Below are positions 15,460-50,001 of a stretch of DNA of 64,000 nucleotides, one piece after another; position 1 is the first letter of the stretch; each line of letters starts with the position of its first letter. The DNA lies in assembly GCA_020402745.1 (NCBI GenBank), contig JADBYZ010000001.1, positions 186,001-250,000 of the forward strand, given 5' to 3'. The translations under genes and the position numbers were made by a program. The notes under the pieces were generated by a model. That model saw only the letters and a program-made list of their open reading frames with translations, did not search any database and had not been told where the DNA came from. This DNA is from Phenylobacterium sp. GTDB taxonomy: Bacteria; Pseudomonadota; Alphaproteobacteria; Caulobacterales; Caulobacteraceae.

Positions 15460-16491
15460 TCAGAGGCGGATCAGCGGCCGGAAGGCGGAACTGGCGCCCA
15501 GGTCGTCGATGGCCTGGTTGATTTCCTCCAGGTCGTATCGGTTGCTCAGCAGGCGCTCGAGGGGAAGCTTTCCGTCGAGGTACATGCGGGCGAAGAGGGG
15601 GACGTCGCGGTCCGGGAGGGAAGCGCCGCCCCAGGTGCCCTTCAGGCCCTTCCCTGAGATCAGGTCATGCGGATCGACGGAGATCTTCTGACCCGCCGGC
15701 GGATGGGAAGCGAAGACGCACTGGCCGCCGAACTTGCGGGTGCTCTCGAAGGCTTGCTCGATCGTCTGCACTCGTCCGGCCGCCTCCACGGCGCAGTCCA
15801 CTCCCCGTCCCGACGTGAGGGAACGGATCGCGGTGACCGGATCCTCCCGGTTGGCGTCGATCACATGGGTGGCGCCGCAGTCGAGGGCCGCCTGAAGCTT
15901 GGCAGGGGCGATGTCCACGGCGATGATCGGATCGCAGCCGGCAGCCACCAGGGCCATGAGTGCGGTCAGGCCAATGCCGCCGAGGCCGAAGACCGCGGCG
16001 CTGGCGCCGGGTGCGGGCTTCAGTTCGTTTGTGACGATCCCGGCCCCGGTGGGCGCCGCGCATCCCAACAGCACCCCGATCTCGTCGGGTACGCCTTCCG
16101 GCAGGCGCTGGCACCGGTTCTCGGCGATCAGGGCGTGGGTGTTGAAGGTAGTGACAGCGCCGGCGTTCAGGTCGAGGCCCCGCCAGCGGTAGCGGATGGG
16201 ATCGGCGTCCAGGCCCTGCCCCTTGATCCAGCCCAGCACCACCCTGTCGCCTGGCGCCACCCGGGTGACCCCCTCCCCTACCGCCAGGACCGTCCCCACG
16301 CCCTCATGGCCCAGGAGGTGTGGCAGATAGGGGTCGAGCCCGCGGCCGCCACGGACCTCCATGACCTGGCTATGGCAAACGCCTGCGTGGGACAGGGCGA
16401 CGAAGACCTGTCCGCGACCTGGCGGCGGCGCCTCGACGTCTTCGAGGATCCGGAGAGGCTCGCCTGTCTGGAAGAGGACTGCAGCCTTCAT
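15460..16491 (-). CDS. Zinc-dependent alcohol dehydrogenase (MDR family)
   Basis: A 343-residue NAD(P)-dependent oxidoreductase. Catalytic zinc ligands are visible as GVCHSQ (Cys39) and GHEGVG (His/Glu near 60-61), with LLGCAAPTGAG (Cys near 150) as the third; the Rossmann motif is VFGLGGIGLTALMA. The four-cysteine structural zinc loop of classical ADHs is missing: its place is taken by RYRWRGLDLN. This is the last gene of a nine-gene minus-strand operon, 21 bases after the E1beta gene, so it probably reduces the carbonyl product of the ThDP step or oxidises a sugar alcohol. The exact substrate is inferred only. Confidence 0.85.
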   Translation of the reverse strand: MKAAVLFQTGEPLRILEDVEAPPPGRGQVFVALSHAGVCHSQVMEVRGGRGLDPYLPHLLGHEGVGTVLAVGEGVTRVAPGDRVVLGWIKGQGLDADPIRYRWRGLDLNAGAVTTFNTHALIAENRCQRLPEGVPDEIGVLLGCAAPTGAGIVTNELKPAPGASAAVFGLGGIGLTALMALVAAGCDPIIAVDIAPAKLQAALDCGATHVIDANREDPVTAIRSLTSGRGVDCAVEAAGRVQTIEQAFESTRKFGGQCVFASHPPAGQKISVDPHDLISGKGLKGTWGGASLPDRDVPLFARMYLDGKLPLERLLSNRYDLEEINQAIDDLGASSAFRPLIRL

Positions 16492-16512
16492 ATCGGCATT
16501 CCCACCATGTGT

Positions 16513-17556
16513 TCAGAAGGGACCCTGAAACTCGGCGCCGGGGACATCATGAGGATGGCTGCGCCGCGACAGCGAGGCGGACTCCAGCTGGAGCCCCAGC
16601 AGCTCACCAATGGCCGTGGCGATGTGCTCGGCGCGAACATGATAGCCCTGTGTCAGGGCGGGGCTGGTGGACTCTGGTGCATCAGGCATGGCCAAGCGAC
16701 GCGGCGGCGCGCGAAGATGTCCCCAGCAGCGGGTGGTGAGTCGGGCGATGATCTCCCCTGCAACGCCGCCGGTCTCATGGCCTGGATCCAGGACCAGGAG
16801 CCGGCCAGTCCTCTGAACGGAGGTCTCGATGGCCTCCCAGTCCAGGGGGCGGATCGAGCGGAGGTCGATCAGGTCGCAGGCGACTCCTTGCGCAGCGACG
16901 TGATCGACCGCCTGCAGGGCCTCGAGGCTCAGGATCGAACTGGCGACGACAGTCACGTCCCCGCCCTGCCGCAGTTGATGGGCCCTGCCGATGGGAACCC
17001 GGTGGTCACCCGCCGGAGTCTCGCCTCGGGCGCCGTGCAGCCACCGGTGCTCCAGGAAAATGACCGGATCCTCCCCGAAAATGGCGGAGAGCAGCAGGCC
17101 CTTGGCATCCGCGGGTGTGGCGGGGCTCACAACGCAGAGGCCGGGTATGTGGGCGAACACGGCCTGCAGATTCTGGGAATGTGTGGGTCCCTGTCCCCAG
17201 CCCCTTCCCAGGATCATCCGGATCGTCAGCGGAACCCCGCGACGCCCGCCAAACATGAAACGCCACTTGGCTGCGTTGTTGATGATCTGGTCCAGGGAAA
17301 GAAGAGCGAAGTCGAGCCTCTGGTGGGTCAGAACGGGCCGCAGCCCCCCCAAGGCGGCTCCGATCCCGACCCCGGTCATAGCGTTCTCTGCCGTCGGCAT
17401 GTCGAACACCCGGTCCTGGCCGAAACGTTGCTGCAGTCCCAGGGTCGTACCGAAGACCCCCTTGGGATCAGGAGCGCCCAGGCCATAGACGATCACCGAC
17501 GGGTCCTGCTCCAGGGCCACCGCCAGGGCGTCGCGTACCGCTTCGGCGTAGGTCAT
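16513..17556 (-). CDS. ThDP-dependent 2-oxoacid dehydrogenase-type E1, beta subunit
   Basis: A 347-residue homolog of pyruvate/acetoin dehydrogenase E1 beta. The cofactor-activating Glu sits in FDMPTAENAMTGVGIGAAL (Glu57), and GPTHSQNLQAVFAHIPGL carries the conserved active-site His. The C-terminal transketolase-C domain includes VVASSILSLEALQAV and IDLRSIRPLDWEAI. Its start overlaps the E1alpha stop by one base (TGATG), so the subunits are co-translated. No E2, E3 or lipoyl gene is nearby, which argues against a classical complex and for free-standing carboligation or decarboxylation in a sugar pathway, as in antibiotic pathways that use E1 pairs for two-carbon transfer. The last 25 residues are atypically polar. 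Confidence 0.87.
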   Translation of the reverse strand: MTYAEAVRDALAVALEQDPSVIVYGLGAPDPKGVFGTTLGLQQRFGQDRVFDMPTAENAMTGVGIGAALGGLRPVLTHQRLDFALLSLDQIINNAAKWRFMFGGRRGVPLTIRMILGRGWGQGPTHSQNLQAVFAHIPGLCVVSPATPADAKGLLLSAIFGEDPVIFLEHRWLHGARGETPAGDHRVPIGRAHQLRQGGDVTVVASSILSLEALQAVDHVAAQGVACDLIDLRSIRPLDWEAIETSVQRTGRLLVLDPGHETGGVAGEIIARLTTRCWGHLRAPPRRLAMPDAPESTSPALTQGYHVRAEHIATAIGELLGLQLESASLSRRSHPHDVPGAEFQGPF

Positions 17557-18530
17557 CAGGGGAATGGGGCCATCTCCCGGGAGTAGATGTCTGCAGATGC
17601 TAGAGAGGACTCCGGGAACGGTGAAGCCTCAGCGAAGGTGAAAGCGGCGTCGATCTCCGCCTGGATTTCGTCATGCACGGCCGCCAGCCAGACCGCGTCG
17701 ATCACGCCGTCCGACAGGAGGCTCTGCCTCAGCCTCGGGATGGGGTCCCTCGCCTTCCAAGCCAGAAACTCCGACTCGGTGCGATAGCCGAGTTCATTAT
17801 CAAACATGGGTCCACAATGTTCGCGCCATCGGTAAGTGGCCAGTTCCACGAACTGGGGACCAGCGCCGGATCGCACCCGGTCTGCGGCGGTCCTGAGGAG
17901 GCTATAGGCGGCCTGGGGGTCATTGCCGTCCCCAGAGGACGACCCCAGGCCCAAGGCGGCGGCTACGCCAGCCAGGGCGCGGCCAGCGGGTTGGCGAACG
18001 TCCAGAGGGGAGTAGACCGAGTAGAGGTTGTTCTCGCAGACGAAGAGAACGGGCAGCTTGCGCACGGCGGCGAAGCCGGCGGACTCGTAGAAGACCCCCG
18101 TCTCCAGGACGGCGTCGCCAATGAAGATGCAGACCAGGCCAGGCTTGCGGGCGATGGCGAGCGATAAGGCGAGACCGACGCCGACCGGGACCGTACCTCC
18201 GACGATGGCGGTTGAACCCATGAACCCCACCGCTTCATCGACAAGGTGCATGGAGCCGCCGTTGCCCCGGGAGCAGCCCGTAGCCTTGCCGTAGATCTCG
18301 GCGATCATGGCCGGCAGGTCCCCGCCCTTGGCGAGGTAGTGGGCGTGCGCCCGGTGACCGCTGACCGCCAGGTCCTGGCCGTCCAGGACCGCGCCCGCCG
18401 CCGCAGCAGGTCCCTCCTGGCCGATAGACAGGTGGGTGGGGCAGCGCATCTTCTGCTCGGCGTAGCGGTCGGCGATCGCCTCCTCCACCGCCCGAATGCG
18501 GATCATGTCGCGCAGGATGCGGCGGGACAC
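17556..18530 (-). CDS. ThDP-dependent 2-oxoacid dehydrogenase-type E1, alpha subunit
   Basis: A 324-residue E1 alpha homolog. CSRGNGGSMHLVDEAVGFMG is the substrate/ThDP entry region, and the Mg-ThDP motif runs from GDA (residues 138-140) with exactly 26 residues to NN (167-168, in CENN). Canonical proteins read GDG; here Gly is replaced by Ala. The frame is open to 18638, inside the methyltransferase gene; the GTG at 18530, eight bases after that gene's stop, is preferred and gives a normal N terminus (MSRRILRDMIRIRAVEEAI). ATG 18506 is the alternative. It pairs with the next gene as an alpha2beta2 enzyme. Placement among NDP-sugar genes suggests that it transfers an acyl-anion unit to a ketosugar; inferred. 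Confidence 0.85.
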   Translation of the reverse strand: MSRRILRDMIRIRAVEEAIADRYAEQKMRCPTHLSIGQEGPAAAAGAVLDGQDLAVSGHRAHAHYLAKGGDLPAMIAEIYGKATGCSRGNGGSMHLVDEAVGFMGSTAIVGGTVPVGVGLALSLAIARKPGLVCIFIGDAVLETGVFYESAGFAAVRKLPVLFVCENNLYSVYSPLDVRQPAGRALAGVAAALGLGSSSGDGNDPQAAYSLLRTAADRVRSGAGPQFVELATYRWREHCGPMFDNELGYRTESEFLAWKARDPIPRLRQSLLSDGVIDAVWLAAVHDEIQAEIDAAFTFAEASPFPESSLASADIYSREMAPFP

Positions 18531-18538
18531 GCCGGGAT

Positions 18539-19210
18539 CTAGGGGATGAACCAATAGTAGTCCCCCGTATAGCCGGACCGGGCGAAGAAGGCCTTCCAGT
18601 CCTCGGCGTGTTTGATCGTCAGGGCGGTGAGGTTCCACGCCTCCATGCGACGCCGTTGTTCATCATCGAAATAGGCGTCGACGGTCACAAAGGCGCCCCT
18701 GCGGGCGACCCGCTCAATCTCGGAGAGCGCCCGGGCGCAGTCCGCCTCGGCGAGGTTGTGGATGGTGTTGACCGAGATCACCACGTCGAAGGCCTTGTCC
18801 GGGAAGGGCAGCCTGTCCGCGCTGGCGACCTGGACGTGGTCGCGCATGTCCTCGATGGCGTTTTCGATGGCGTAGGCCGAGATGTCGACGCCCTTGACCT
18901 GGATGCCCGGGATCAACGCGGCCATGTCGTGTATCATGAACCCCTTGGCGCAGCCCACGTCGAGCACGCTGTCGCCCGCCTTCAGGCCGAAGTGGGACTG
19001 AAAGGTAGGGATGACGGGGGTCCAGAAGCGGGGGTTGTAGGAAAAACCGCCATAACCGTGGGCTCTGTCGCCGTCGAAGAAGTCCTTGCCGAACTGGCGG
19101 GCGAGTGCACGGTCCGCTTCAGTCTTGGTCTGGCCGCGCTCATCGACATTGCGACGGGTCCGCGGATAGTTCGCAAGGAGATCGATTTCCTGGCCCATGT
19201 GCTCGCTCAC
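18539..19210 (-). CDS. Class I SAM-dependent methyltransferase of the sugar operon
   Basis: A 223-residue protein. Motif I is VLDVGCAKGFMIHDMA (residues near 85-100), followed by VKGVDISAYAIENA and ADRLPFPDKAFDVVISVNTIHNL. An N-terminal YGGFSYNPRFWTPVIPTF block is conserved in methyltransferases found with sugar genes. The start is a GTG that overlaps the upstream stop (GTGA), so it is coupled to the dehydratase gene. It probably O- or C-methylates the nucleotide sugar or its intermediate. Which position is methylated cannot be read from the sequence. Confidence 0.82.
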   Translation of the reverse strand: MSEHMGQEIDLLANYPRTRRNVDERGQTKTEADRALARQFGKDFFDGDRAHGYGGFSYNPRFWTPVIPTFQSHFGLKAGDSVLDVGCAKGFMIHDMAALIPGIQVKGVDISAYAIENAIEDMRDHVQVASADRLPFPDKAFDVVISVNTIHNLAEADCARALSEIERVARRGAFVTVDAYFDDEQRRRMEAWNLTALTIKHAEDWKAFFARSGYTGDYYWFIP

Positions 19211-20199
19211 GGCTTGTGGATGTAGGATTGGGGAAGACGCTTCAGATCGTCGAGGTTGGCGTCGACCCAGGCCAGGGTCTCGTCGATACCGGCGTCGAGG
19301 GACAGGGTGTCCGACCAGCCGAGCTCTCTGCGGATCTTCTGGCTGTCGAGGGTGTAGAAGGCGTCCTTGCCGACCCGCTCCTCCGCCACATCGGCCACGG
19401 ACTCCAGGGCCACGCCCATCCGCGCGCAGATCGTCTCCACCAGGGCGCGGATGGTGATCTGGTCCTGGGTGGCGATGTGATAAGTCTCGCCGGGGCGGCC
19501 CTCCAGGGCGACCCTGAGGGTGGCGTCGCAGACATCGCGGATGTGGATGAAGGACCGCTGAGAGGCGCCCCCGCCGTGCAGCTTAAGCCTCTCGCCTGTG
19601 CGGATGCAGAAGAGCGTGCGGGGAATGATCCGGTAGAGAGGCTGGCCCGGTCCATAGACGTTCGCCGCACGGGTGGTGACCACGGGAAAGCCATAAGCTG
19701 CATGATAGGTGCGCAGGCTCATGTCGGCGGCTGCGCGGGAGACGGCGTAGGGGGTGCTGGGATTGAAGGGCGCGTCTTCCGTCACCGCGCCCGAGGTGCT
19801 GCCGTACACCTCCGGCGTCGAGACGTGCACGTAGCGCTCGAGGAAGGGCATGGTCCTCAGCGCCTCATGCAGACGGATGGTCGAGACGACGTTGGTCATG
19901 AACCAGTGGTCTGGATTGGCCCAGCTCTCGGCCACCATGCTCTGGGCGGCGAAGTTGACCACCCGCGGCGGCTTGAGCGTGTTCAGGAGGTCGCAGATCT
20001 TCGGAAGCTGGGTGTTCAGGTCGAGCTGGTGGAACACCAACCCCTTGCGGTCCGGTCTCCAGAGATAGGGCGTCAGGGCCGGATGCCCCTCGGGCGACCG
20101 GCTGACCGCAACAACCGAGTAGCCCTGCTCCAGGAGGAAGGACGTGAAGCTGGCGCCCGAGAACGAATTACTGCCGATGACGAGAAAATCAGGTTTCAA
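19207..20199 (-). CDS. RmlB-like NAD-dependent sugar 4,6-dehydratase/epimerase (extended SDR)
   Basis: A 330-residue extended SDR acting on a nucleotide sugar. It has VVNFAAQSMVAESWANPDHW (RmlB-type hexose contacts), VHVSTPEVYG (Thr and Glu kept, but Pro replaces the catalytic Asp of TDE), and SRAAADMSLRTYHAAYG. The YxxxK motif reads YAVSR, Arg for Lys. The dinucleotide loop is GSNSFSG instead of GxxGxxG. These changes leave open whether it dehydrates C4-C6 or only epimerises or oxidises. The start is a TTG, 9 bases after the SIS gene stop; the ribosome-binding site is weak. Confidence 0.82.
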   Translation of the reverse strand: MKPDFLVIGSNSFSGASFTSFLLEQGYSVVAVSRSPEGHPALTPYLWRPDRKGLVFHQLDLNTQLPKICDLLNTLKPPRVVNFAAQSMVAESWANPDHWFMTNVVSTIRLHEALRTMPFLERYVHVSTPEVYGSTSGAVTEDAPFNPSTPYAVSRAAADMSLRTYHAAYGFPVVTTRAANVYGPGQPLYRIIPRTLFCIRTGERLKLHGGGASQRSFIHIRDVCDATLRVALEGRPGETYHIATQDQITIRALVETICARMGVALESVADVAEERVGKDAFYTLDSQKIRRELGWSDTLSLDAGIDETLAWVDANLDDLKRLPQSYIHKP

Positions 20200-20208
20200 C
20201 GTCGCCGC

Positions 20209-20787
20209 TCACGTGTGCTTCGCCGTTTCGGCCATCATCCACTGCATGACCATGTGGCCCACGATCAGCTGCAGGTCCTCAGAGATCTGCATGTCATCAA
20301 CGGGGAAGTGGATGGGCACATCGACAAGGGTCTTGGCCTTGCCGCCTGAGTACCCAAGGATGGCGAAGGTCCTCATCCCCAGGGCGCGACCCTTCTCGAT
20401 GGCCTTAAGGATATTCGGGGAGTTCCCGCTTCCTGAGAGGGCCAGAAGAATGTCGCCGGGCTGACCGAAGGTCTGGAGCTGGAGGGAGAAAATCTCAGAA
20501 TAGTCGGTATCATTCGCCAGGCAGGTCAGAACCGCGGCGTTTGCCGGCAGCGCGTGGGCGCGAAGGCCGGGGCCCTTACCCCGCACCGCGCCGAAAATGA
20601 AATCGTTCACCAGGTGAATGGCGTTCCCGGCGCTGCCGCCATTGCCGCAGAGATAGACGCTTCGACCCGTGCGCCAGGCCTCAAGCATGGCCCCCGCGAG
20701 AGTCTCGACCGGAGCGAGGTCCGCCTCCGCGAGCGTCTTGCGGAGCCGTTCGGCATAGTCAGCGAAGAAGGCGGGCTGAGAGGTCAC
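20209..20787 (-). CDS. SIS-domain isomerase, GmhA (sedoheptulose-7-phosphate isomerase)-like
   Basis: A 192-residue single-SIS protein. YLCGNGGSAGNAIHLVNDF (from residue 45) is the GmhA phosphate-binding and metal-site region; the family reads CGNGGSAADAQHxAxEL, so His is kept and the zinc-ligand Glu is Asp. ALSGSGNSPNILKAI is the second phosphate loop, and SEDLQLIVGHMV is the C-terminal QExxxH-like site. GmhA converts sedoheptulose 7-phosphate to D-glycero-heptopyranose 7-phosphate, the entry to heptose sugars. The GTG at 20787 overlaps the epimerase stop (GTGA) and follows AGAGGA; the ATG at 20808 is an alternative start. Together with the kinase/nucleotidylyltransferase upstream it makes a heptose pathway likely. 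Confidence 0.82.
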   Translation of the reverse strand: MTSQPAFFADYAERLRKTLAEADLAPVETLAGAMLEAWRTGRSVYLCGNGGSAGNAIHLVNDFIFGAVRGKGPGLRAHALPANAAVLTCLANDTDYSEIFSLQLQTFGQPGDILLALSGSGNSPNILKAIEKGRALGMRTFAILGYSGGKAKTLVDVPIHFPVDDMQISEDLQLIVGHMVMQWMMAETAKHT

Positions 20788-21719
20788 GCTATCATCCTCT
20801 GCATCCACTTCAGGTTGTGCCAGCGGTCGATATCCTTGAGGTCCCCGCGCTGGTAGGCCACCACGATCTCTCGGATGGCGTCGTCTATGGTCTTGCGGGG
20901 CGTAAAGCCTGCCTGGCGGAGCTTGTCCGAATTCTGGCGGTAGGACCGGGGATCGTTGGAGGGGGTGATGAGGATTTCCGCCGGTATGCTTCGGGCGACG
21001 CGCTCTGCGATCTCCCGGATCGAGACATTCTCGAACCCGGCGTTGAAGACGCCCGTGATCCCCGGGCGCTCAAGGAGGAAGACATAGAGGTCCGTAATGT
21101 CGTCAATGTGGATGTTCGGCCGGACCTGGTCGCCGCCGAACACCGTGATCCGGCCGTTGGTCAGGGCCTGCATGGTGAGCATGTTCACCGAGACGTCGAG
21201 ACGCATCCGGGGGCTGACGCCGCAGACTGTGGCCGGCCGGACGATCTGCACCGCCATCTGGTCGGCGTAGCTGAGCAGGACCCGCTCGGCGACCATCTTG
21301 GTCTTGTTGTACTCCGTCAGGGGCTCGGGCTCGAGGTCCTCGGTGACCTCGGGGTCATCCTTCACGCCATAGACGCTTCCGGACGAGGCGTAGATGAACT
21401 GCCGGACGCCCCTGCGAACCGCGTGGTCGGCCAGACGCATGGTGGCCAGGGCGCTGATCTCCCAGGTCAGGCGGGGGTCGAGGTCACCGCAAGGGTCGTT
21501 GGCCACCGAGGCCAGGTGGATGATGGCGTCGACACCCTCAAGCGGCACGGAGTGGATGTCGCGGACATCGCCGGCGATCACGGTCAGGAGATCGTGCGTC
21601 GGCAGTTCATTACCGAACCATTGGACGTCGAAGGCCGTCACCCGATGCCCTGCGGCGAGCAGTTTCGGCACAAGGACGGACCCCTTGTAGCCACACGCAC
21701 CGGTCACAAGGAGATTCAT
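20784..21719 (-). CDS. NAD-dependent nucleotide-sugar epimerase (extended SDR)
   Basis: A 311-residue enzyme with intact extended-SDR motifs: LLVTGACGYKGSVLV (dinucleotide loop), IIHLASVANDPCGDLDP, IYASSGSVYG (catalytic Ser) and TEYNKTKMVAER (YxxxK). RPATVCGVSPRMRLD and VRPNIHIDD shape the sugar site. It most resembles enzymes that epimerise or reduce a 4-keto NDP-sugar, but the sugar is not identifiable. Unlike the RmlB-like neighbour, its catalytic residues are all present. It lies 84 bases after the nucleotidyltransferase gene, the longest gap in the operon. Confidence 0.85.
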   Translation of the reverse strand: MNLLVTGACGYKGSVLVPKLLAAGHRVTAFDVQWFGNELPTHDLLTVIAGDVRDIHSVPLEGVDAIIHLASVANDPCGDLDPRLTWEISALATMRLADHAVRRGVRQFIYASSGSVYGVKDDPEVTEDLEPEPLTEYNKTKMVAERVLLSYADQMAVQIVRPATVCGVSPRMRLDVSVNMLTMQALTNGRITVFGGDQVRPNIHIDDITDLYVFLLERPGITGVFNAGFENVSIREIAERVARSIPAEILITPSNDPRSYRQNSDKLRQAGFTPRKTIDDAIREIVVAYQRGDLKDIDRWHNLKWMQRMIA

Positions 21720-21803
21720 CTGCGTCCATCTCGGCGTCTGAGGAGCTCAGTCTGGGGATATTGACGTGATTCCCGCCGGGCCCACGCATTCGGCTTCTTG
21801 GGC

Positions 21804-22529
21804 CTAAGGGGACCCATGAGGCCAGGAACGGTCTGGAAATCGCGCCTCGGCGTCCGCCAGCGCCTCCGGACTGCCGATATCCCGGAAAAAGCCCGAGTGC
21901 ACCCGGGCCTGGATCCTGGGGACGAGGAAGGGGATCACCTCTGTGGAGAGATCGATCACGGGCCGGCGAAGTGCGGTCAGGCGGTCCAGGATTTCCGGCG
22001 CAAACACGTAGATGGCGCCGTTCGCCAGATCGCCCGGCGGATCGGTGACCTTCTCGTGGAAGGCCGTCACCCGGCCCCGCGGGTCCAGCTCAAGGATTCC
22101 GCAGTCCCGTGGCCGGTCGGTCCGGAAGGCCAGCAGGGTCAGCAGGATATCAGCGTCAGCAGCCCTGTGCGCTGCGACGAGATCGCCAACGTCAGCATCC
22201 GTCAGGTTGTCGGCATGAAGAACAAGGAAGGGGTCGCTTCCAAACCATTCACGGCTCGCCAGGACAGTGCCGCCGGTACCCAGCAGGGTCTCCTCGTGAA
22301 CCAGTTCGATGCGATCCCGCCAGCGGCTCTGCGCCACATGCGCGCGCACCTGACCAGCCAGATGGTGAGTGTTGATCCGGACTGAATCGACGATCTCGTC
22401 ACCGAGCAGGTGATCAAGCCAGTGATCCAGAAGGGGACGCCCCCGGATGGGAACCAGACACTTGGGAAGGGTGTCTGTGAGGGGACGCAGGCGGGTTCCC
22501 AAGCCAGCGGCCAGAAGGAAGGCCTTCAC
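21804..22529 (-). CDS. Sugar-1-phosphate nucleotidyltransferase (HddC/RmlA-like)
   Basis: A 241-residue NTP-transferase. The N-terminal signature LLAAGLGTRLRPLTDTLPKC and then LVPIRGRPLLDHWL is diagnostic, FLVLHADNLTDAD holds the metal-binding Asp, and FHEKVTDP is the sugar-phosphate contact. Size and pattern fit the HddC or mannose-1-phosphate guanylyltransferase group, so it may activate a heptose 1-phosphate; the nucleotide is not readable. The start is GTG, overlapping the stop of the permuted HldE gene (GTGA). With that gene it gives the operon two distinct nucleotidylyltransferase activities. Confidence 0.87.
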   Translation of the reverse strand: MKAFLLAAGLGTRLRPLTDTLPKCLVPIRGRPLLDHWLDHLLGDEIVDSVRINTHHLAGQVRAHVAQSRWRDRIELVHEETLLGTGGTVLASREWFGSDPFLVLHADNLTDADVGDLVAAHRAADADILLTLLAFRTDRPRDCGILELDPRGRVTAFHEKVTDPPGDLANGAIYVFAPEILDRLTALRRPVIDLSTEVIPFLVPRIQARVHSGFFRDIGSPEALADAEARFPDRSWPHGSP

Positions 22530-24016
22530 GGCCGTAACTCGTTCATCCTCACCGTAGGCAGGGAGACCTCTCGGATAAGCTCAGCCGCAAGCATGGGAGT
22601 GTTCCCGACATGGGAAACCTGCCAAGCGGCCGCCAGAGAACCAAGATAAGACGCCTGCCAGATATCGGCCCCCACGCGCAGCGCCATAGCTGTGCAGGTG
22701 AAGAAGCTGTCGCCAGCACCCGCGACATCCCGCGGCGAGCGGTTGAAGGCTGGCAGACGGTCCGTATGGTGAGCCCGACCCTTGGGGGCGAAGATCAGCA
22801 CGCCTTCTCCACCCAGCGTAACCACCACATTCTCTGCTCCCGAGGCGTGTTGGAGGCGCTCGGCGATCATGATCAGGCCCGCCTCCTCATCCCGCATCGC
22901 CAGTCGGGCTTCATGCTCGGTGGGTGTAATCAGTGACATGCCCCTGAACCGGGAGATGTCGGACATTTGGGAGGAGGCCTGACTATCGGCAGCCATCAGG
23001 ACATCCAGTTCCCGAGCTCGGGCGGAGAGATGCTCCACGACCGATTGAGGCAAGCATCCATAGTTGAAATCCGAGAACAGCAGGAGATCCGCCGTCTGCA
23101 GTGCCGCTCCGGCGGCTTTATTCAAACGGGCCTGCAGATCCGGGTCGATGGAGCCCTGTCTCAGAAGGTTGACGCGCAGGAGGGTCTTGCCGGAAGCGCG
23201 GTACCTTTGCTTCAGGGTCGTCGGACGTGTCGGATCGGTCAGAAGGCTGAGCTGAACACCAGCTGCTGAGAGCTGATCCTTCGCGAACTGGGCGGCCTCA
23301 TCCTTACCACTCACACTAACGAAGGTCACGGTGGCCCCCAGCGCCTTAGCGTGTGCCGCCACGACGCCCGCACCCCCTACGAACCGGCGACTCTCCACCG
23401 GGGTCACCACAAGTGTCGGGTCCTCCCGGGACATGCCAAGGGGGTCGCAGTTGATGTACTCGTCAACAATAAGGTCGCCGATAGTGACGACGTTGAGGTC
23501 TCTGAACGCTTCGATAATCCCGACAAGGTCCGTGATGCGAAAACGGTTTCGTTCGACGAAGTCCAGAGGTTTGAAGATCTCGGAACCGGGCAGGCGTCCC
23601 ATGTCCGGGGACATCAGCTCGGAGGAGTAAAGCCGAGCCTCCCCAGAGCTGAAGACCAGCCTCCCACCGTACGCCGATACGGCCTCTTGCTCACTGTTGA
23701 AGACGTCCCGGTACTCCCGACCCTTGACCACGATCTCTGGGCGAAGACGGGAGATGAAGGACACGACCGGTTCGTCGAGAGCGACCACCTCCCGCACGGC
23801 TCTGATCGCCTTGACGTCGCGAACTCGATTGGCCTGCGGGACGGTCACCCCGTCGGCGCCATCTGGCGACACCCCGACCACAAGGCGACCCCCCAGCCCC
23901 GAAGCGAAGCGCAGCAGCCGGAGATGACCTGTGTGGAGGACATTGAAGTTGCCCGCCACAAAGACAATGCCTTCGTCCGACGCCCGCGACCGGATCTCGC
24001 GGACCATCTGGTCCAT
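22526..24016 (-). CDS. Domain-permuted HldE-like enzyme: nucleotidylyltransferase followed by PfkB-type heptose kinase
   Basis: A 496-residue bifunctional protein at the head of the operon. Residues about 15-145 are a cytidylyltransferase-like domain with AGNFNVLHTGHLRLLRFA (HxGH at 28-31). Residues about 165-480 are a PfkB/ribokinase kinase: NVVTIGDLIVDEYI, FVGGAGVVAAHAKALGA, RPTTLKQRYRA, and the catalytic GAGDSFF near 433. Canonical HldE, also in this window at 47554-49014, has the kinase first. The kinase blocks of both proteins share RPTTLK(Q/T)R and LLRVxxxxxGS/P segments, so both probably phosphorylate heptose 7-phosphate at C1. The ATG at 24016 follows GAGGGTG; a TTG at 24079 would add 21 residues. 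Base composition looks less GC-rich than its neighbours. Confidence 0.85.
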   Translation of the reverse strand: MDQMVREIRSRASDEGIVFVAGNFNVLHTGHLRLLRFASGLGGRLVVGVSPDGADGVTVPQANRVRDVKAIRAVREVVALDEPVVSFISRLRPEIVVKGREYRDVFNSEQEAVSAYGGRLVFSSGEARLYSSELMSPDMGRLPGSEIFKPLDFVERNRFRITDLVGIIEAFRDLNVVTIGDLIVDEYINCDPLGMSREDPTLVVTPVESRRFVGGAGVVAAHAKALGATVTFVSVSGKDEAAQFAKDQLSAAGVQLSLLTDPTRPTTLKQRYRASGKTLLRVNLLRQGSIDPDLQARLNKAAGAALQTADLLLFSDFNYGCLPQSVVEHLSARARELDVLMAADSQASSQMSDISRFRGMSLITPTEHEARLAMRDEEAGLIMIAERLQHASGAENVVVTLGGEGVLIFAPKGRAHHTDRLPAFNRSPRDVAGAGDSFFTCTAMALRVGADIWQASYLGSLAAAWQVSHVGNTPMLAAELIREVSLPTVRMNELRP

Positions 24017-46555: not shown

Positions 46556-47557
46556 CTACCGGTAGGGCGTATCTGTCGCCAGGTACCGGCGGACATAGTC
46601 CTCGATCCCGGCTTCCAGCGGCGCAAAGCCGGCCGTGTAGCCCGCCTCGGCCAACCGCTCCATCCGCGCCTCGGTGAAGTACTGGTAACGGTCGCGGATA
46701 CCCGCCGGCATGGGGATGTAGTCAATCTTTGGCGCCTGGCCGGCGGCGGAGAAGACGGCCCGCGCCAGGTCCTCGAAGGTCCGCGCCTGCCCGGACCCCA
46801 GGTTGTAGACCCCGTTCACCTGCGGGGAGGCGAGCAGCCAGGCCGCCACCTCCGCGATGTCGCGGACATAGACGAAGTCACGCTTCTGTCCCCCGTCGGG
46901 AATGCCCTCCCGGTAGGACCGGAACAGCTGCACGCCCTGCCCGTCACGGATTGAGGGCCAGATCTGGGCGGCCACCGATTTCATCGGCCCCTTGTGCCCT
47001 TCATTGGGGCCGTAGACGTTGAAGAACTTCAAACCGGCCCACTGGGGCGGCGCGTATCCCCGACCCGCCTGCCGCACGGCGAACATGTCGAACTGGGCCT
47101 TGGACCAGCCGTAAGCGTTGAGGGGGCGCAGGGCCGCCAGACTTTCGAAATCATCCCTGTCAGCAAACCCGAGGGCCCCGTCGCCATAGGTCGCCGCCGA
47201 CGAGGCGTAAATGAAGCGCCGCTGCCGATCGGCGCACCACCGGAAGAGGTCGCGGCTGAGGCCGAAATTGGTTTGGATGATCCGGTCGGCGTCAGGCTCC
47301 GTAGTGGAGGAGATGGCGCCCATGTGGATCACCGCCTCGACGTCGCGCCAGCGCTTCTCAAGCCAGTCGAACATCTCGTCCGGCGGTACGAAGTCGCCGA
47401 TGGCGTGGTTGGCGAGGTTCCGCCACTTGCCGAGGTCAGCCTCGCGAAGCCGGTCGCAAACGACGACGTCCAAGCCCCGGTCCTCAGCCAGGCGGGCGAC
47501 GATATTCGAGCCGATGAAGCCGGCGCCGCCGGTGACGAAAATGATCCTGCGGGTCAC
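46556..47557 (-). CDS. hldD: ADP-L-glycero-D-manno-heptose 6-epimerase HldD
   Basis: A 333-residue extended SDR that inverts C6 of ADP-D-glycero-D-manno-heptose to give the L,D form used in the LPS inner core. IIFVTGGAGFIGSNIVARL binds NADP, MGAISSTTEPDAD is the HldD-specific loop, IYASSAATYGDG holds the catalytic Ser, and YGWSKAQFDMFAV the Tyr/Lys pair. KFFNVYGPNEGHKGPMKSVA is also characteristic. The start is a GTG overlapping the hldE stop (GTGA). The product joins the HldE product in one pathway. Confidence 0.95.
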   Translation of the reverse strand: MTRRIIFVTGGAGFIGSNIVARLAEDRGLDVVVCDRLREADLGKWRNLANHAIGDFVPPDEMFDWLEKRWRDVEAVIHMGAISSTTEPDADRIIQTNFGLSRDLFRWCADRQRRFIYASSAATYGDGALGFADRDDFESLAALRPLNAYGWSKAQFDMFAVRQAGRGYAPPQWAGLKFFNVYGPNEGHKGPMKSVAAQIWPSIRDGQGVQLFRSYREGIPDGGQKRDFVYVRDIAEVAAWLLASPQVNGVYNLGSGQARTFEDLARAVFSAAGQAPKIDYIPMPAGIRDRYQYFTEARMERLAEAGYTAGFAPLEAGIEDYVRRYLATDTPYR

Positions 47558-49014
47558 GGCTCGCCCTCCCCGGCCATCCGCCGGATGGCGGCGGTTGTAG
47601 AATAGCCGTGCACGAGGGGCGCCAGCCGCACTTCTCCACCCCATTCCCGGACGAGGTCGCCGCCGACCACCTGGGACTCCGAGTAATCCGCACCCTTGAC
47701 GAGAACGTCGGGACGGGCCGCGCGGATGAGTTCGAGAGGCGTTTCCTCATCGAAAGGAGCCACGAGATCGACGCTGGCGAGGCCTGCCAGAACCATGGCC
47801 CGGCTTTCCAGGTCGTTGACCGGTCGCCCCTCCCCCTTCAGCGCCCGGACCGACCGGTCGGAATTCAAGCCGACAATGAGCCGGTCGCACCAGGACCGCG
47901 CCTGGGCGAGGTAGGCCACGTGACCCCGGTGAAGAATGTCGAAGCAGCCATTCGTGAACCCGACCCGCAGGCCCCGGGCCCGCCAGCGGGCGACCTCCTC
48001 GACCATTCGCTCGGGGGTGGCGATCTTGGCGTCCGCCGCAGCCATGTGGACGGAACGCGCCGCATCGACCAACTCCGCGGGCGAGACGGCCGCTGTGCCG
48101 ACCTTGCCGACGGCGACCCCTGAAGCCAGCAGGGCGAATGCGATGGCGTCCTCGAGGGGACCGCCGGCTGCGATCCCGACGCCGAGGGCGGAGATGGCGG
48201 TGTCCCCCGCGCCGGAGGCGTCGAAGACCTCGCGAGGCGTGCCCGGAAAATGCTGCACAGGCTGGCCGCGCACCGCCAGCGACATGCCCTGTGCCGCACG
48301 GGTGACTAGGATGGCGCGAGCCTCGCAGAGCTCCAGCGCTAGGGCCAAGGCGGCCTCGACCTCGGCGTCCGTGCCCGTGGGCAGGCCGGCGGCATGGGCG
48401 AGCTCGGAAGCATTGGGCTTGATGATATCCACCGCGCCGTAACGGCTGAAGGAGCGGGCCTTGGAATCAACGATCACGGGAAGGCCCGAGGCCCGGCAGG
48501 CGGCGATCACCTCGTCCGTGACAACGCCCTTGCCGTAGTCGGACAGGATGATGACCCCGGCGCCGACGGCGACGTCTCGGATCGTCCGGGCGAGGCGCGC
48601 AGAGGTGTCCGCGCTGACGGGGCCCGTCTCCTCCACGTCCACCCGCAGGAGCTGCTGACCGCCTGAGACGAAGCGGGTTTTCAAGGTGGTCGGCCGGGTG
48701 GTGTCGGTGACCAGGGCCCCCTCGATCCGCCCATCATCCCCCACCAGCCGGAGGGCCTCATGACCTTCCGGGTCCGAACCGATCACCCCCACGAGGGCGG
48801 CCTGACCGCCGAGGCCGGCGACGTTGCGGGCCACGTTTCCGGAAGCGCCGAGCATGACCAGCTCGCGCTTCCGCGCCAGCACCGGGATCGGCGCCTCGGG
48901 TGACATCCGGCTGACTTCGCCATAGACGAAGCGATCAACCATCACATCACCAACGCAGACCACCCGGACGCCGGCGCCGCGGGCGATCAGGTCCTGGAGG
49001 GCGGCGAAGTCCAC
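47554..49014 (-). CDS. hldE: Bifunctional heptose-7-phosphate kinase/heptose-1-phosphate adenylyltransferase HldE (canonical order)
   Basis: A 486-residue enzyme. Residues about 1-320 are the PfkB-type kinase (VCVGDVMVDRFVYG, LGASGNVARNVAGLGG, DASGAGDTAISALGVG near 270). Residues about 345-480 are the adenylyltransferase with GFTNGCFDILHRGHVAYLAQ (HxGH). It phosphorylates D-glycero-D-manno-heptose 7-phosphate at C1 and, after GmhB acts, adds AMP. The order is the standard kinase-transferase one, in contrast with the permuted paralog at 22526-24016. The start is GTG, five bases after the kdsA stop. It sits in the LPS core operon kdsA-hldE-hldD. Confidence 0.95.
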   Translation of the reverse strand: MDFAALQDLIARGAGVRVVCVGDVMVDRFVYGEVSRMSPEAPIPVLARKRELVMLGASGNVARNVAGLGGQAALVGVIGSDPEGHEALRLVGDDGRIEGALVTDTTRPTTLKTRFVSGGQQLLRVDVEETGPVSADTSARLARTIRDVAVGAGVIILSDYGKGVVTDEVIAACRASGLPVIVDSKARSFSRYGAVDIIKPNASELAHAAGLPTGTDAEVEAALALALELCEARAILVTRAAQGMSLAVRGQPVQHFPGTPREVFDASGAGDTAISALGVGIAAGGPLEDAIAFALLASGVAVGKVGTAAVSPAELVDAARSVHMAAADAKIATPERMVEEVARWRARGLRVGFTNGCFDILHRGHVAYLAQARSWCDRLIVGLNSDRSVRALKGEGRPVNDLESRAMVLAGLASVDLVAPFDEETPLELIRAARPDVLVKGADYSESQVVGGDLVREWGGEVRLAPLVHGYSTTAAIRRMAGEGEP

Positions 49015-49019
49015 GCGGC

Positions 49020-49874
49020 TCAGCCCTTGCGCCGCTTGGCGAGGGCGTCGAAGGCCAGCAGGTCCGCCATCAGGCCCTCGAACTCGGACAGGGGCACCAT
49101 GTTGGGCCCATCGCAGGGGGCGTTGTCGGGATCAGGATGGGTCTCCATGAAGATGGTCGCGACACCGACCGCCACGGCCGCCCGCGCCAGTACGGGGACA
49201 AACTCCCGCTGGCCGCCGGATCGGTCGCCCTGGCCGCCGGGCTGCATGACGGAGTGGGTCGCATCGAACACCACCGGGCAGCCGATCTCGGCCAGGATGG
49301 GCAGGGCCCGCATGTCGCTGACCAGGGCGTTGTAGCCGAAGGTCACCCCGCGTTCCGTCGCCAGGGCGTTCGGATTGCCGGCGCCGCTGATCTTGGCGAT
49401 GACGTTCTTCATGTCGCCGGGCGCGAGGAACTGTCCCTTCTTGACGTTGACCGCCCGGCCGGTCTCGGCGGCGGCGATCAGGAGATCGGTCTGGCGACAC
49501 AGGAAGGCCGGTATCTGAAGCACATCCACCGCCTCGGCGACGGGCGCGCATTGCTCGCGTTCATGCACATCGGTCAGGACGGGCAGGCCGAGGCTCTCGC
49601 GGATCTCGGCGAAGATCGGAAGTGCAGCTTTCAACCCGACCCCCCGGGCCGCCCGGGCAGAAGTGCGGTTGGCCTTGTCGAAGGAGGTCTTGTAGATCAA
49701 GCCGATGTCCAACCTTTGGGCGATGTCCCGAAGTAGGGAGGCGGTCTCCAGGGCGTGTTGGCGGCTTTCAAGCTGGCAAGGACCGGCGATGACCGTCAGC
49801 CGCTCGCGGTTTCCGATCCGCACCGAACGACCGGAGGGCGGCGCCAACTCGACGATGGCGTTAAGGCTGGACAA
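49020..49874 (-). CDS. kdsA: 3-deoxy-D-manno-octulosonate-8-phosphate synthase KdsA
   Basis: A 284-residue aldolase that condenses phosphoenolpyruvate with arabinose 5-phosphate to Kdo-8-phosphate, the first committed Kdo step. [76 protein letters not shown] and [12 protein letters not shown] are the family blocks in order. The start is taken as the TTG at 49874 because AGGAG lies seven bases upstream and the length then matches the family; ATG 49904 lacks a ribosome-binding site. It heads the LPS operon and is divergent from cfa. Confidence 0.95.
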
Positions 49875-50001
49875 TTGGGCGCTCCTGAGAGACGACTGCG
49901 GCATCAGGAGCGTTAAATGGCTTGGAGCGAACGGCGGCACAAGCTCGAAATGAGCCTGTCTGCGCCGGCCTGCAGCCGGAGATGCCAAGGAGTTGCAGGG
50001 C

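Follow-up and report, generated by a model that had tools for sequence, protein, structure and literature searches.

We analysed a 64,000-nucleotide stretch of Phenylobacterium sp. (NCBI GenBank assembly GCA_020402745.1, contig JADBYZ010000001.1, positions 186,001 to 250,000 of the forward strand; hereafter the window), which carries on its minus strand, at 15460-24016, an operon of nine genes with a pair of pyruvate dehydrogenase (PDH) E1-like subunits among genes of nucleotide-sugar metabolism. All nine open reading frames are intact, and their order and families, as given in a preliminary description of this DNA, agree with the Pfam and NCBIfam profile matches by which the genes are named here (SDR, short-chain dehydrogenase/reductase; ThDP, thiamine diphosphate):

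A, 22526..24016, minus: permuted bifunctional protein, nucleotidylyltransferase domain followed by a PfkB/HldE-like kinase domain (Pfam CTP_transf_like 20-114, PfkB 175-473)
B, 21804..22529, minus: sugar-1-phosphate nucleotidyltransferase (Pfam NTP_transferase; present in 64 of 70 loci with A, see below)
C, 20784..21719, minus: extended SDR, proposed nucleoside diphosphate (NDP)-heptose 4-dehydrogenase (Pfam Epimerase; top solved relative 6vo6)
D, 20209..20808, minus: GmhA-like ketose-phosphate isomerase (Pfam SIS_2; alternative start GTG 20787)
E, 19207..20199, minus: RmlB-like SDR whose subfamily shows T-P-E and YxxxR motifs (TIGR01181, 208 bits, cut-off 365.1)
F, 18539..19210, minus: S-adenosylmethionine (SAM)-dependent methyltransferase (Pfam Methyltransf_11; 12-relative alignment)
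G, 17556..18530, minus: E1alpha-like ThDP subunit (Pfam E1_dh; TIGR03182, 258 bits, cut-off 393.85; trees)
H, 16513..17556, minus: E1beta-like ThDP subunit (Pfam Transket_pyr and Transketolase_C; WGQGxxHS motif)
I, 15460..16491, minus: zinc-type medium-chain alcohol dehydrogenase, proposed branch-ketone reductase (Pfam ADH_N and ADH_zinc_N)

The spacing is as tight as had been described: A and B overlap by 4 bases, E and F by 4 and G and H by 1, while 9 bases separate D from E and 21 separate H from I, and the 84 bases between B and C form the only gap of more than 25. C and D overlap by 25 bases with the listed start of D, or by 4 if D begins at its alternative GTG. The longest reading frame of G begins at GTG 18638; we prefer GTG 18530, the first in-frame start past the stop of F, which leaves an F/G gap of 8 (the E1alpha query used in our searches had four additional N-terminal residues relative to this start).

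A and D score under the equivalog cut-offs of the heptose enzymes HldE and GmhA (A, 199.9 vs 345 bits for the kinase and 56.9 vs 181.5 bits for the nucleotidyltransferase; D, 121.5 vs 209.45 bits for TIGR00441), and D is the sole SIS_2 match in a profile search of the genome. A second, ordinary heptose pathway is also encoded, with an HldE of standard domain order at 47554-49014 of the window, about 24 kb from the operon. Beside it lie an HldD-like SDR (46556-47644) and a KdsA-like gene (49020-49988), both named by inspection, as in an ordinary lipopolysaccharide (LPS)-core cluster. The earlier statement that the cluster lacks a GmhB phosphatase holds for the nine genes, but not for the genome: a GmhB/histidinol-phosphatase-type protein, GmhB by inspection, is encoded elsewhere (contig G000:C5, 273855-274295; TIGR01656, 130.6 bits), and GmhB-like genes occur in related loci.

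The two SDRs were considered as possible sources of a ketone. Of 28 matches to the E family, 25 have T-P-E and 23 have YxxxR, whereas the aligned solved dehydratases have T-D-E and YxxxK, motifs whose residues have established roles in dehydration. E and its relatives form a conserved RmlB-like subfamily in which T-P-E replaces T-D-E and the Lys of YxxxK is an Arg. Because E differs from RmlB-type 4,6-dehydratases at two hallmark residues, the ketone is likelier to come from C, and a ketone made by E through plain 4,6-dehydration is unlikely. Of the 12 solved structures that match C at an E-value of 1e-15 or better, the top one (6.8e-30) is 6vo6, which we take to be the Campylobacter jejuni heptose C4-dehydrogenase Cj1427. 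Cj1427 is described as a guanosine diphosphate (GDP)-heptose C4-dehydrogenase (PMC10680097; this and the other papers are cited from excerpts of their text).

An E1 pair without a spare E2

A search with PF00198 found two lipoyl E2 proteins in the window's genome, which is listed as 100% complete. The first belongs to a PDH operon that also encodes E1alpha, a lipoyl-bearing E1beta and E3, and the second lies between SucA and an E3 in a 2-oxoglutarate dehydrogenase operon. Both E2 genes are in complete operons, and the G and H pair is without a spare lipoyl E2, a result that leaves the preliminary description unrefuted. When the search was applied to ten genomes reached from ten E1 loci, two gave no match: Sulfurimonas G446, whose sole E1alpha match is that of the cluster, and a SAR86 single-cell genome of 0.9 Mb, possibly incomplete.

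In a 71-row E1alpha tree, from which locus L192 was left out and in which only two genus-relative rows were kept, one branch (99/88) separates 52 rows from 19. On the 52-row side, 48 rows lie beside sugar genes by our own label (a stretch that contains a match of more than 70 bits to the hidden Markov model (HMM) of A, C, D, E, F or GmhB), 4 are other and none is E2-linked; on the 19-row side, 16 are E2-linked (the PDH of the window's own genome was checked in its operon, and REL_L011 and REL_L018 were assigned by hand as canonical PDH), 3 are other and none lies beside sugar genes. A 67-row tree gave the same split (100/98). Some of the sequences used to train the G profile were E2-linked E1alpha, and the profile score therefore cannot tell the two kinds apart; the trees and sequence identity do. 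Pseudomonadota, Campylobacterota, Bdellovibrionota, Cyanobacteriota, Thermodesulfobacteriota and Actinomycetota are all represented on the 52-row side. One record titled Oceanobacillus (L097) also carries the cassette; its E1alpha groups among alphaproteobacteria, and contamination is possible.

Sequence motifs follow the tree split in part. WGQGxxHS is present in 40 of 52 sugar-type E1beta, and in 0 of 11 that are E2-adjacent and 0 of 3 that are unlinked. For E1alpha, the corresponding counts are 34/49, 0/14 and 3/3 for [GST]HRxHxH and 40/49, 0/14 and 2/3 for YRxxEH. A pattern search found the ThDP-binding and active-site motifs GD(A/G)...NN, YRxxEH and PxxEN kept in most members.

Recurrence of the gene set in other genomes

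To survey related loci, one genome from each of 84,980 species was scanned with a three-protein alignment of A; the scan preselects on two short peptides, and the 72 loci found are a lower bound. Adding the window and removing L098, L102 and L103 left 70 usable loci, in which genes were counted as six-frame HMM matches in stretches extending about 10 kb to each side. Many of the records are metagenome assemblies with unreliable titles. Three of them (L038, L039 and L045) are titled Bordetella parapertussis, with a gene A 50-54% identical, and the titles look misassigned.

Parts of the nine-gene set recur in many of these loci: B is present in 64 of the 70, C in 24, D in 21, E in 23, F in 32 and I in 36, and a GmhB-like gene in 9. 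All nine genes are kept in the same order in L032 and L034. Because these two loci preserve the order and parts of the set recur widely, the grouping goes beyond chance.

L032 has one additional gene between H and I. This gene (L021 1820-2932, equivalent to L032 17582-18694), inside the operon of a sister genome, belongs to a family of about 340-370 residues; sequence searches place it in 1 of 35 relatives and show none in the window's genome. Homologues adjoin gene A in L022 (17052-18071) and L035 (7996-8994). Two members of the family gave no Pfam match at an E-value of 0.001, and two weak, unrelated matches at 5; a guess that the gene encodes a glycosyltransferase found no support, there being no clear Pfam match.

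ThDP-dependent enzymes of three kinds accompany A: an E1 pair in 20 of the 70 loci, a split transketolase in 22 and an acetolactate-synthase-like gene in 11. E1 and split transketolase occur together in a single locus (L083), against about 6 expected (Fisher p 0.0034, with relatedness ignored). The transketolase pair occupies the position of F, G and H in L040 and L041, whose genes run A B C D E TKN TKC I; L040 also carries F, at a more downstream site. Transketolases transfer two-carbon units, and their position in the place of E1 supports a two-carbon step. Gene I accompanies an E1 pair in 18 of 20 loci and a split transketolase in 13 of 22, and it is present in 4 of the 26 loci with no ThDP gene in the stretch. 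The F proteins of A-centred loci are 48-100% identical to the window's F in E1 loci vs 35-45% in transketolase loci; identities of 34 to 73% in E1-centred loci show that the match of F to ThDP type is no strict rule. Five loci (L053, L058, L059, L062 and L072) have a transketolase variant without I, in which two radical SAM genes lie around the pair.

Of the 26 loci without a ThDP gene, 16 are on stretches shorter than 21 kb. We searched 20 of the corresponding genomes for E1beta only, and 6 hold an E1beta at least 51% identical; by coordinates, three of these (L037, L095 and L100) are just past the fetched stretch, and three are on other contigs. The genomes of the former three (G848, G849 and G850) each have two E1beta genes on a single contig, about 28-32 kb apart; these flank the cassette by coordinates, and are 72-75% and 41-45% identical to that of the window. 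We rejected the idea that plasmids or phages carry the cassette, as tblastn with A at an E-value of 1e-40 gave no match in either the plasmid or the phage collection; E1alpha alone was found on 7 plasmid records (1e-55).

The association was also approached from the E1 side. Among 385 alphaproteobacterial genomes, A-like genes were found in 31 (E-value up to 1e-60), cluster-type E1alpha in 25 (up to 1e-75) and both in 17, the window's own genome being counted in all three figures (hypergeometric probability 1.2e-15, ignoring relatedness). The 26 loci centred on E1 (L174-L199) include 17 with A, 19 with A, D or a GmhB-like gene, and 22 if C and E are also counted. Elsewhere, too, the E1 genes keep company with sugar genes, these 19 loci each having a permuted kinase, GmhA-like or GmhB-like gene within the fetched stretch; the separation that the preliminary description named as a refutation was thus not observed. 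I is found in 5 of the 26 and DegT aminotransferases in 7, with no overlap; in A-centred E1 loci, 3 of 20 have both.

A predicted route to a branched heptose and its alternatives

These observations provide the basis for a model, to which we assign a probability of roughly 0.55, in which the operon makes a nucleotide-activated nine-carbon sugar, a heptose bearing a two-carbon branch that E1alpha/E1beta adds to an NDP-ketosugar. The product would probably be destined for a surface glycan. D would isomerise sedoheptulose 7-phosphate, the kinase domain of A would phosphorylate C1, and a GmhB-type phosphatase from elsewhere in the genome would strip the 7-phosphate. The nucleotidylyltransferase domain of A, B or both are proposed to form NDP-heptose, which C would oxidise to a ketosugar, probably at C4. 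E1alpha/E1beta, working without a lipoyl E2, would then use pyruvate or a ketose to generate a two-carbon carbanion bound to ThDP, whose addition to the ketone would give a tertiary alcohol with an acyl branch. Finally, I, perhaps with E, may reduce the branch and F may methylate the sugar. A heptose origin and a ThDP-dependent two-carbon step had been put forward in the preliminary description, and both fit the comparative evidence; the product itself is a prediction, and E is an unlikely source of the ketone.

Several points weigh against this model. We infer all of the chemistry: the substrates, the order of the steps, the two-carbon donor and the position of the branch. The model accounts neither for E nor for the presence of two nucleotidylyltransferase activities (A and B) in one operon, and, as already noted in the preliminary description, there is no glycosyltransferase among the nine genes. 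D has Asp for a Glu of the best-matching solved GmhA chain (by inspection, in 21 of 23 D sequences), and therefore its substrate, and with it the entry sugar, may differ. Seven of the 26 E1-centred loci are without A, D or GmhB, several of them being short contigs, and L083 holds both E1 and transketolase. Furthermore, an E1alpha/E1beta pair on Streptomyces griseofuscus plasmid pSGRIFU1 (L200), one of the four other rows of the 52-row clade, adjoins condensation-domain, ketosynthase and acyl-carrier genes of nonribosomal peptide synthetase/polyketide synthase (NRPS/PKS) type, without annotated sugar genes, a setting which suggests that the clade also serves non-sugar pathways.

The setting of L200, together with the 26 of 70 loci in which A has no nearby ThDP gene, would fit two pathways sharing one operon: A, B, C and D would yield an ordinary NDP-heptose, with the ThDP pair, F and I serving another product, for instance a two-carbon unit destined for an acyl carrier. 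However, the operon genes overlap, A and E1 are shared by 17 of the 385 genomes, and many of the loci without a ThDP gene are on the short stretches noted above or in genomes that hold a similar E1beta; nor was a carrier-protein gene noticed in the operon, though no dedicated search for one was made. We regard this arrangement as quite unlikely. The ThDP enzyme might instead act early, on an aldehyde, and lengthen a sugar phosphate linearly in the manner of transketolase or DXS, so that D would isomerise a longer ketose phosphate and the product would be a linear higher-carbon sugar. That split transketolase can stand in for E1, and that D departs from GmhA at one conserved residue, are consistent with such a route. 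Yet L188, L189 and L194 combine GmhA-like, GmhB-like and HldE-like genes with E1, a set needing no chain extension; the top solved relative of C is presumably an NDP-heptose C4 oxidase; and the E1-type sugar enzymes in the literature add branches to ketosugars (PMC12247030). Linear extension, too, we consider unlikely.

Pfam and NCBIfam label both G and H as PDH E1-like, as would be expected of an ordinary 2-oxoacid dehydrogenase E1 with its E2 encoded elsewhere. We reject ordinary PDH function and find this explanation barely credible: each E2 of the genome has its own E1, Sulfurimonas G446 has no PF00198 match, and WGQGxxHS is found in most sugar-type and in none of the E2-adjacent E1beta. 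Because both E2 genes are in complete operons and the tree splits as described, the pair is no stray metabolic enzyme.

Beyond this operon, we tentatively suggest, at somewhat less than even odds, a widespread pathway to two-carbon-branched NDP-heptoses in surface glycans. Unrelated ThDP carboligases (E1alpha/E1beta, split transketolase and perhaps a YerE-like decarboxylase) would have replaced one another in a single conserved heptose cassette, giving different branches that are finished by a reductase or by transaminases. If so, E1-type and split-transketolase branching would also act on heptoses in the glycan gene clusters of many bacteria. The model would predict a class of nine-carbon sugars, provide natural acceptors for testing these enzymes, and account for E1 genes annotated as pyruvate dehydrogenase without an E2.

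Relation to known systems

Our literature search, which did not cover the in-silico survey of Krug et al. 2024 (reference 70 of PMC12247030), did not find the cassette described, and the word heptose is absent from the main text of PMC12247030. As excerpted, that review assigns sugar branching of the E1 and transketolase types chiefly to specialised natural products, and the YerE-like kind to LPS. It lists 13 candidate branching transketolases, all split-gene, from Streptomycetes and untested, and calls ketone acceptance by transketolases unproven. What appears new here, as judged from sequence, is the tie between E1-type ketosugar branching and a heptose cassette whose related loci have split transketolase in the corresponding role, together with a predicted product.

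NapB/NapD had been offered as a precedent for the E1 pair. This did not hold up: their homologues are termed two-component transketolases (PMC7570522) and therefore fit the transketolase variant better. Likewise, the split transketolases of miharamycin and amipurimycin, for which hydroxyacetyl addition to a ketosugar has been proposed (PMC12247030), correspond to the enzyme that fills the place of E1 in related loci, whereas the window has E1alpha/E1beta.

The pre-branch steps resemble the C. jejuni capsule GDP-heptose pathway, which has the same types of step, with an isomerase, kinase, phosphatase, guanosyltransferase and the C4-dehydrogenase Cj1427 (PMC10680097), and C resembles 6vo6. In contrast to that pathway as described, the kinase here is HldE-like and permuted, and a ThDP step is predicted. 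HldE of the adenosine diphosphate (ADP)-heptose pathway has the same two domain families as A, in which their order is reversed.

For the branching step, AviB1/AviB2 (avilamycin, eurekanate) and Pau11/Pau12 (paulomycin) are nearer (PMC4425429). For these PDH-like pairs, the proposed reaction transfers a two-carbon unit of pyruvate to a 4-ketosugar, with ketoreduction as the next step (PMC4425429, PMC4753412). The operon shares with them, and with the alpha-KADH2 branching enzymes, an E1alpha/E1beta pair set among sugar genes, a proposed two-carbon addition to a ketosugar and then reduction of the ketone (PMC4425429, PMC4753412, PMC12247030); G and H have the alpha-KADH2 features of a pair with ThDP motifs, no partner E2 and a nucleotide-sugar gene setting. 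Branch ketones of the E1 type are reduced, methylated, oxidised or transaminated (PMC12247030). Compared by description, AviB1/AviB2 and Pau11/Pau12 act on deoxyhexose-type sugars of actinomycete antibiotics, whereas here the pair lies with a heptose gene set, in many bacteria. YerE (yersiniose, Yersinia O-antigen) offers a parallel in surface polysaccharides, being a ThDP enzyme that puts a two-carbon branch on a ketosugar. Unlike the window's pair, it belongs to the decarboxylase-type ThDP superfamily, of which the operon has no member; the acetolactate-synthase-like genes in 11 of the 70 loci are candidate YerE kin.

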